Virus record (IMG/VR): IMGVR_UViG_3300025093_000144
Location: 1 to 21,774 of that record
DNA: 21,774 nt
Reading direction: 5' to 3' (one strand)
Origin: a virus
Part shown: piece after piece, positions 2,897 to 4,301 of the stretch
Position numbering within the stretch: position 1 is the stretch's first letter
How the letters are laid out: the number at the start of each line of letters is the position of its first letter
Position numbers and translations under genes: made by a program
The notes under the pieces: generated by a model
The model's database searches: none
What the model was told of the DNA's origin: nothing
The model's input: only the letters and a program-made list of their open reading frames with translations

Positions 2897-3091
2897 ATGG
2901 AAAAATTAAAAGTTAAAAAGAAGTCTCGTGTAAACGAGGCAGGTAATTATACAAAACCTACAATGCGTAAGCGACTTTTTAATCAAATTAAAGCTGGCAC
3001 AAAAGGCGGTAACGCTGGTCAATGGTCAGCAAGAAAAGCTCAGTTGCTTGCGTCACGCTATCGTAAAGCAGGTGGGGGCTATACAACATGA
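2897..3091 (+). CDS. Small very basic protein; resembles N-terminal half of a KGG...GQWSARKAQ family
   Basis: 64 residues with about 17 Lys/Arg against 2 Glu. The core NYTKPTMRKRLFNQIKAGTK, then GGNAGQWSARKAQLL and GGGY, matches from memory a widespread short family (probably DUF5872) in bacteria, marine phages and algal viruses. There it is followed in the same chain by a W-T-K...W segment. Here that second half is the next gene, in the -1 frame. The start follows the capsid terminator by 6 nt and has no visible Shine-Dalgarno, so expression should be low or depend on read-through and structure. Function is unknown; DNA or RNA binding is inferred only from charge. Confidence 0.8.
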   Translation: MEKLKVKKKSRVNEAGNYTKPTMRKRLFNQIKAGTKGGNAGQWSARKAQLLASRYRKAGGGYTT

Positions 3092-3324
3092 GGCCGCCAC
3101 AGCAAAGTTTAAAGAATTGGACAAAGCAAAAATGGCGAACAAAATCTGGAAAGAAATCCTCTGTAACTGGAGAAAGGTACTTGCCTTCAGCAGCCATAAA
3201 AAGTTTGAGTGCTGCGGAGTATGCGGCAACAACAAAGGCTAAACGAGAAGGTAAGCGTAAAGGCAAACAGCATGTGCGCCAACCATTAAAAATTGCAAAG
3301 AAAACTAGACAGTATAGGACTTAA
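3088..3324 (+). CDS. Small very basic protein; resembles C-terminal half of the same family
   Basis: 78 residues with about 23 Lys/Arg against 3 Glu. The motifs LKNWTKQKWRTKSGK, GERYLPSAAI and AEYAATTKAKREGKRKGKQ are those that follow GQWSARKAQ...GGGY in single-chain members of the family (from memory). The ATG overlaps the preceding stop (ATGA at 3088-3091), with an AGGTGGGGG purine stretch about 9 nt upstream, so it is translationally coupled. The frame is open upstream back to 3067, so a -1 shift in or after the G run at 3074-3078 would fuse both halves. No catalytic motif is visible. Confidence 0.8.
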   Translation: MRPPQQSLKNWTKQKWRTKSGKKSSVTGERYLPSAAIKSLSAAEYAATTKAKREGKRKGKQHVRQPLKIAKKTRQYRT

Positions 3325-3326
3325 TT

Positions 3327-3446
3327 ATGCCAAATGTAGCAGGTAAAAAATATTCGTACACAAAAGCAGGTATGGCTGCGGCTAAGAAAGAAGCTGAAAA
3401 GACAGGCAAACCTATGATTAACAAGTATAAAAAGAAGAAGAAGTAA
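3327..3446 (+). CDS. 39-residue lysine-rich phage protein
   Basis: A very short ORF beginning MPNVAGKKYSYTKAGMAAAK and ending in five Lys; 13 Lys against 2 Glu. Short proteins with this MP-V-GKK-Y-YT-KG-AAAKK pattern recur, from memory, in marine phages of several families near structural genes, so I consider it real despite its size. AGGA lies about 7 nt before the ATG, and the ORF fills exactly the gap between its neighbours (2 nt after one stop, 1 nt before the next start). Function is unknown; nucleic-acid binding or capsid association is inference. Confidence 0.75.
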   Translation: MPNVAGKKYSYTKAGMAAAKKEAEKTGKPMINKYKKKKK

Positions 3447-3447
3447 C

Positions 3448-3705
3448 ATGACCATAGAGCGTGGTGGACACACATTTAAAGGTTTACGTATTCCAATCAG
3501 AACGCCTAATCATAAAACAAAGTCCCATGCTGTTCTTATTGGCACAAGAAAAAAACCTATACTAAAAAGATTTGGAGAACAAGGCGCAAAAACTAACCAG
3601 AACGAACAACAGCGTAAGGACTTCAAAAGAAGACACGCCAAGAACATAGCCAAAGGTGAGACCAGTGCAGCTTATTGGGCTAACAAGGTGAAGTGGCAAG
3701 CATAA
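3448..3705 (+). CDS. Small basic protein ending in the SAAYWANKVKW motif
   Basis: 85 residues with about 21 Lys/Arg against 5 acidic. It contains HAVLIGTRKKPILKRFGEQG followed by FKRRHAKNIAKGETSAAYWA and NKVKW. Proteins with RFG-QG and FKARH-KNI-KG-SAAYWANKVKW are common, from memory, in marine phages including T4-like, T7-like and pelagiphage genomes; their function is unknown. It is the last of four consecutive basic micro-genes between capsid and tail tube genes. Upstream purines (GAAGAAGAAG) could act as a weak ribosome binding site. Confidence 0.8.
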   Translation: MTIERGGHTFKGLRIPIRTPNHKTKSHAVLIGTRKKPILKRFGEQGAKTNQNEQQRKDFKRRHAKNIAKGETSAAYWANKVKWQA

Positions 3706-3716
3706 GGTAAAACAAA

Positions 3717-4301
3717 ATGGCAACAACAACCCAACTAGATGCAGTAAACACTATGCTCTCTGCGATAGGTGAAGCACCTGTCAACAGCCTTTCCTCTGGT
3801 TTGGTTGAAGCCGAAATAGCAGAGACTATACTTAACACTGTAGACAGAGAAGTGCAGTCAATGGGCTGGCACTTTAACACAGAACTAAATAAATCTTTTG
3901 CACCAGATACTAGTGGAAACATAATACTAGGTACAGACATCCTACGTGCTGATGCTACACTAGAAGCAGAAAGCCCTGACTTAGTTCAGCGTGGCTTAAA
4001 AATGTATGACAGAAAAAACCATACGTTTAACATTGGAGCAAACACAAACTTAGATGTAGTGGTTCAATTAACTTTCAATGATTTGCCTGAGGTAGCTAAA
4101 AGATATATTACACTCAGAGCAACAAGAATATTTCAAGACCGTATTGTTGGGTCTAATACTCTTCACGACTTTCAGATACGTGATGAAGAACGAGCAATGT
4201 TTGAACTCAAAGAGTTTGACAAGGCTGCTGATGACCACAACATATTTGATAACTATGATACATTTAGTATTATTGATAGGCAGGGTAGGAGAACTTTCTA
4301 A
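3717..4301 (+). CDS. Tail tubular protein A, T7 gp11-like
   Basis: The T7 gp11 homologue (adaptor/gatekeeper) forms the dodecameric ring joining portal to nozzle. The 194 residues match T7 gp11 (196 aa). The N-terminus QLDAVNTMLSAIGEAPVNSL corresponds to the T7 motif LSAVNDILASIGEPPVSTL, followed by an ILNTVDREVQSMGWHFN segment also conserved in T7. The C-terminal half shows LPEVAKRYITLRATRIFQDR, the helical region typical of the family. The stop overlaps the next ATG by one base (TAATG), suggesting coupled translation with the nozzle protein. Confidence 0.95.
   Translation: MATTTQLDAVNTMLSAIGEAPVNSLSSGLVEAEIAETILNTVDREVQSMGWHFNTELNKSFAPDTSGNIILGTDILRADATLEAESPDLVQRGLKMYDRKNHTFNIGANTNLDVVVQLTFNDLPEVAKRYITLRATRIFQDRIVGSNTLHDFQIRDEERAMFELKEFDKAADDHNIFDNYDTFSIIDRQGRRTF

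Follow-up and report, generated by a model that had tools for sequence, protein, structure and literature searches.

Two kinds of described system resemble the locus considered here. The first is the Pfam family DUF5872 (PF19197), which carries in one chain, and in the same order, the two halves that the window (the whole stretch analysed, a 21,774-base virus record with a T7-like build) encodes as two chains, A and then B. In PHROGs these halves stand as two unrelated-looking families, phrog_17747 and phrog_14910, of which the window proteins A and B are ordinary members, and single chains such as that of phage Hodr match both. Within open-licence PMC articles, DUF5872 turned up in one, as a line of a gene table (PMC12085832), and no mention was found of the PHROG names, of DUF3140 or of the phrase "DUF5872 domain-containing", nor was a printed link between phrog_17747/phrog_14910 and DUF5872 found there. 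The second is the class of coupled gene pairs that resemble frameshifted genes (PMC3711429). As set out in that article, an ORF2 start within 10 nt of the ORF1 stop is among the criteria for coupled pairs, and coupling and frameshifting can both occur in one gene pair.

Four small basic ORFs lie between the genes for the major capsid protein (MCP) and the tail tube protein in the window, and A and B are the first two of these. The features are as follows.

1719-2846: major capsid protein; PF21703, E 3e-59
2897-3091, + strand: ORF A, 64 aa, first half (GNYTKP..GQWSARKAQ..GGGY) of a DUF5872-like protein; phrog_17747
3067-3087, + strand: open stretch of B's frame upstream of its start, 7 codons, of chance-level length and with an openness not conserved in relatives
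3070-3078, + strand: Gly-Gly codons with the G run (AGGTGGGGG); SD-like duplex TGGGGGC, proposed frameshift site
3088-3091, + strand: ATGA, start codon of B overlapping stop codon of A; coupling by termination-reinitiation is likely
3088-3324, + strand: ORF B, 78 aa, second half (SLKNWTKQKWRTKSG..GERYLP..GKQ); phrog_14910
3327-3446: 39-aa lysine-rich ORF between B and the 85-aa ORF; phrog_33179, E 2e-10
3448-3705: 85-aa basic ORF (g85); phrog_7595
3717-4301: tail tube protein; PF17212, E 9e-51

The preliminary description, made from the letters of the window, had given A and B these coordinates and their ATGA overlap, had placed B in the -1 frame relative to A and open from 3067 (a TAA occupies 3064-3066), and had located a run of five G (G5) at 3074-3078, inside this open stretch. 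All of this is correct. Residues 3-62 of A match positions 3-62 of the 63 in phrog_17747 (E 3e-35), and residues 2-77 of B match positions 4-79 of the 80 in phrog_14910 (E 1e-36). Both proteins are strongly basic, A with a pI of 11.2 (17 K+R, 2 D+E) and B with a pI of 11.4 (23 K+R, 3 D+E). Compared with the nearest relative, contig locus L171, dN/dS is 0.087 for A (if anything an overestimate, the first residues being off by one) and 0.098 for B, indicating purifying selection on both. Judged by this conservation, A and B are both real, conserved genes. Relatives of the 85-aa ORF occur in 98 of the 249 loci fetched for A or B, among the loci listed, and this ORF thus tends to accompany A and B.

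We consider it very probable that A and B are separate genes derived by inherited fission of a single-chain DUF5872-type gene in a lineage of marine phages, and that their translation is coupled.

Single-chain relatives of A and B

The preliminary description had assigned the two halves to a family in which both lie in one chain. Such a family exists, with both halves in one ORF in Hodr and in other listed viral and bacterial loci, and by sequence it is DUF5872. Loci were scanned with HMMs of each half on the + strand only. The viral set comprises 238 distinct loci (13 isolate regions, 224 IMG/VR loci and the window), left from 251 sequences once 13 that duplicated a contig or the window had been removed. 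These loci are the best 80 of more per scan, and counts describe the listed set rather than phages at large. Both half-HMMs match one ORF in 44 of the 238 listed viral loci, and in 77 of the 80 best-listed bacterial or archaeal genome-contig loci. Single chains on genome contigs come mostly from Alphaproteobacteria and Stutzerimonas, among the best 80 listed; the split form is seen in 3 of these 80, each on a contig of a metagenome-assembled genome that may be of phage origin. Among plasmids, tblastn returned 54 records, from Phaeobacter and Azospirillum, that cover 80% or more of the single chain.

Identification with PF19197 comes from the single chains. Of the viral ones, 24 of 36 match the model at E up to 1, the best at 4e-8, and the bacterial chain of L266 scores 29.1 bits, above the gathering cut-off of 27.5. 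One Azospirillum relative is annotated "DUF5872 domain-containing". Neither window A nor window B matches PF19197 at E up to 1 or any other family in a Pfam search, and an NCBIfam search returned no match for either half alone. Since A and B each correspond to half of the PF19197 model, the pair is called a split relative and is not filed as a member.

The viral single chain of Hodr (Pelagibacter phage EXVC031P; 132-aa WDQ27536.1, L004 1821-2219) contains the same halves as the window pair, with GGGY and SL..W flanking the linker. It matches phrog_14910 at E 3e-32 and phrog_17747 at E 4e-10. It differs from the window pair in being one chain, with an 8-residue linker and a shorter N-terminus. 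Another viral single chain occurs in S-CRES1. A linker of about nine residues had been expected in the preliminary description, and the distance between GGxY and xLxxW is indeed 7-9 residues in all 56 of 56 single chains.

Arrangement of the halves across viral loci

Of the 238 listed viral loci, 44 have a single ORF, 180 have two ORFs, 13 have B only and 1 has A only. A is upstream of B, on the scanned strand, in 180 of 180 listed two-ORF loci. A 4-nt or 1-nt stop/start overlap joins the two in 87 of these 180 (41 NTGA and 46 TAATG-type), 16 pairs are otherwise within 6 nt, and 77 are apart by 66-2025 nt; the stop-to-start distance is from -5 to +6 in 103 of the 180 listed pairs. Some of the listed B-only loci lie at contig edges. 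In L051, one of the loci scored as B only, A lies on the strand of B and some 2.7 kb upstream of it, and in some others, L109 among them, the match is to a single chain whose first half is divergent. The records of B-only loci L016, L045 and L048 were searched for A, and none was found.

The isolate regions include the same range of forms, with 10 of 13 two-gene, 2 single chain (Hodr and S-CRES1) and 1 broken elsewhere (S-EIV1). Isolates CRP-13 and CRP-9, both Roseobacter phages, have the ATGA overlap; CRP-603, CRP-345, Lederberg and HTVC035P have TAATG, and MEP401 has another overlap. The halves are separated by 1765 nt in HMO-2011, 466 nt in CRP-1 and 398 nt in HTVC033P. Between the halves of HMO-2011 (L003 1235-3004) lie a gene for a methanesulfonate monooxygenase alpha subunit and two other ORFs. 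S-EIV1 (L013 2061-2715) resembles the window in having its DUF5872-like protein in separate ORFs. It differs in having three pieces, with a later break, after the W..KW motif, and an unrelated 77-aa ORF in between; the different position of the break marks it as independent. The order MCP, A, B, 85-aa gene and tail tube, together with the same split point, is shared with the window by L171 (a 39.9-kb contig) and L015.

A natural gene split was among the possibilities raised in the preliminary description, and the comparison of homologous loci supports it. Single chains occur in phages and bacteria, the two-ORF form makes up 180 of the 238 listed viral loci, and two conserved ORFs are present in the lineage of the window.

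Origin of the two genes and initiation of B

A quick tree, with an assumed root and many forks unresolved, was computed from 108 of the 179 dereplicated rows. All 69 split rows and 2 fused rows (L119 and L268) fall on one starred branch (97), and this 71-row branch is nested among fused rows from phages and several bacterial phyla. The single chain L119 groups with the split L174, and the single chain L268 with the split L180, L187 and L223, both groupings being starred (98 and 99). The tree has 3 label changes. The simplest reading of these sequences is one fission followed by up to two re-fusions. That the two-gene form is ancestral, with the single chains made by fusion, possibly several times, is quite improbable. 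The grouping of L119 and L268 with split rows, and the three label changes, suggest that some fusion may have occurred, but the split rows as a whole are nested among single-chain rows of phages and several bacterial phyla. The AU test does not reject a tree on which the split rows form a clade by themselves (p 0.419), so the re-fusions of L119 and L268 are possible rather than established. The direction, fission versus fusion, hinges on rooting with the bacterial rows, and no single branch sets these rows apart from the rest.

Under the preferred reading, fission with coupled translation, B is translated from its own start codon, and the G run is best read as its ribosome-binding site. Upstream of B, the strongest pairing with the anti-SD is that of TGGGGGC (-8.4 kcal/mol), which lies 8 nt ahead of the ATG. 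Of the 22 window start sites listed (the table has 23 rows, of which 6640 was dropped as not being a start codon), B has the strongest SD-like site, while the value for A is only -1.9. This ranking makes the run, within the Gly-Gly-Gly codons, the putative ribosome-binding site of B. Mean duplex energies at the Gly run in the listed loci are -9.0 and -9.3 for the two overlap classes and -9.7 for fused genes; because the energies in fused genes are similar, the SD-like site probably predates the split. The middle Gly codon is GGG or GGA in 32 of 40 NTGA, 27 of 46 TAATG, 44 of 74 separated and 13 of 37 fused loci, all of them listed loci whose rows are not independent. Selection for an SD in the Gly codons was considered as an explanation and set aside, as duplex energies show no difference of the kind it predicts; with energies that do not favour split loci, we propose the SD and do not claim selection for it. 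The start of B would be TTG, a weak start codon, in 23 of 41 listed NTGA loci, which fits coupling better than free initiation.

Ribosomes ending A at TGA, or landing on the SD-like G run, would start B at the overlapping ATG, and a single mRNA would yield the two proteins at comparable levels with no need for recoding. The GGGY motif would provide a ready-made SD beside the linker, where a start codon and a stop would suffice to split the gene. With SD-like Gly codons in place before the split, the linker may have been an easy place to break.

The preliminary description had also proposed programmed -1 frameshifting at the G run (3074-3078), which would yield an A-B fusion besides A. The comparison across loci makes this very improbable. 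It is true that B's frame is open back to 3067 and that a shift would give a linker near the natural length of 7-9 residues. However, across nine other + strand genes of the window, 1710 of 4937 positions (35%) have 7 or more open codons in the -1 frame, and runs of at least 5 G occur five times on the + strand, so neither the 7-codon stretch nor the G5 is unusual. The -1 relation is the commonest among listed adjacent pairs (89 of 103), but +1 (8) and 0 (6) also occur, and both common stop/start overlaps, NTGA and TAATG, impose -1, which accounts for the excess. Four-base stop/start overlaps are common in compact phage genomes. A run of at least 5 G is present in 23 of 40 listed NTGA pairs, as the proposal would favour, but also in 8 of 46 TAATG and 18 of 74 separated pairs, and its presence in all three classes shows that the run is not tied to a shift.

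Several further observations count against a shift. The last 13 codons of window A contain no in-frame X_XXY_YYZ heptamer, the site being T GGG GGC, and a heptamer is found in this region in only 3 of 87 listed overlapping pairs. Between the Gly codons and the B start, B's frame is closed in 6 of 40 NTGA and 18 of 46 TAATG pairs (24 of 86 scorable listed pairs), even in L044, which belongs to the G-run group; it is closed in all 74 of 74 scorable separated pairs listed. The two halves stand 66-2025 nt apart in 77 of 180 listed pairs, and B comes with a start codon and an SD-like site of its own. Folded with nested base pairs only, the RNA at 3079-3150 reaches -10.9 kcal/mol (z -1.08) and does not appear unusually structured. 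Taken as frameshift signals, heptamers, frame relation, conservation of the open frame and folding of the RNA gave no support.

The stop and start are within 10 nt in 103 of 180 listed two-ORF loci, a conserved co-location. By the criteria given in PMC3711429, the A-B pattern, as read from sequence, is that of translational coupling and not of programmed frameshifting. As in the coupled pairs described there, A and B are adjacent with no conserved heptamer; unlike those pairs, they are a split protein of a single-domain family whose halves come apart in 77 of 180 listed loci. Given the warning in the same article that both processes may share one pair, low-level slippage between A and B may still occur.

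Finally, although homopolymer runs are error-prone in sequencing, the suggestion that one gene was split by an indel in the G run, introduced in sequencing or assembly, can be set aside in practice as scarcely credible. The syntenic relatives L171 and L015 are split in the same way, with gene order, G5, overlap and frame relation all as in the window but differing bases around them (GTGA for ATGA). Isolates CRP-13 and CRP-9 share the ATGA overlap but have GGTGGAGG and no G5, and B carries a start codon.

Probable role of the two proteins

A model of the single chain of L119 has a mean pLDDT of 85.9 and a pTM of 0.53, with helices in each half and a joining region of low confidence (60 for residues 61-70 and 77 for residues 71-80). 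Window B modelled alone reaches a mean pLDDT of 89.6 and a pTM of 0.71, and is predicted to fold independently. With a flexible linker between them, two modules would tolerate being encoded separately. Solved structures searched by sequence and by fold gave no match, a result that is not proof of a new fold, and viral Foldseek matches were nameless or covered halves only. In BFVD, about 56 residues of the single-chain model match A0A6J5PCY7, a 1022-aa phage ParB/Sulfiredoxin protein, at 70% identity, which places one half also inside a large ParB-type protein.

In the bacterial single chains there is a Rho_N/SAP-like region at the C-terminal end, DUF3140 and, in Belnapia, a long lysine/alanine-rich tail. 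The Belnapia loci L261, L267, L273 and L290 (from about 2480) combine a DUF5872-like N-terminus, a DUF3140-type region and a lysine/alanine/arginine-rich repeat tail, an architecture read from translations, with Pfam run on L273 only. The neighbours of four bacterial loci share no common theme (UvrD-like helicase, transporters, chemotaxis receptor, semialdehyde dehydrogenase and others).

Within the fission reading, A and B are basic, probably nucleic-acid-binding modules that may act together. The very basic halves, and the company of Rho_N/SAP-like, DUF3140 and lysine/alanine-rich regions in bacteria, suggest such binding, which we put at about an even chance. The two basic chains may bind nucleic acid, possibly packaged or nucleoid-associated DNA. 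The constant order and co-occurrence of A and B suggest joint action, and the pair may do the work of the single chain with no need for the linker. A more elaborate scenario is tentative and, taken whole, rather unlikely: a DUF5872-type DNA-binding protein would have split once, in a marine phage lineage, at a linker preceded by Gly-Gly-Gly codons that serve as a built-in ribosome-binding site, into halves that form an obligate two-chain protein, keep their order, drift apart, take up cargo genes and have twice re-fused.

The comparison offers a useful annotation result rather than a new mechanism. It provides a well-sampled case of phage gene fission, in which fused, overlapping, separated and differently broken forms stand side by side, and a case in which a frameshift call that is plausible from one genome fails once relatives are compared. 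Two uncharacterised phage families, phrog_17747 and phrog_14910, are joined to DUF5872, a likewise uncharacterised family shared with bacterial chromosomes, and with the three families linked, a function found for any one of them would serve all.
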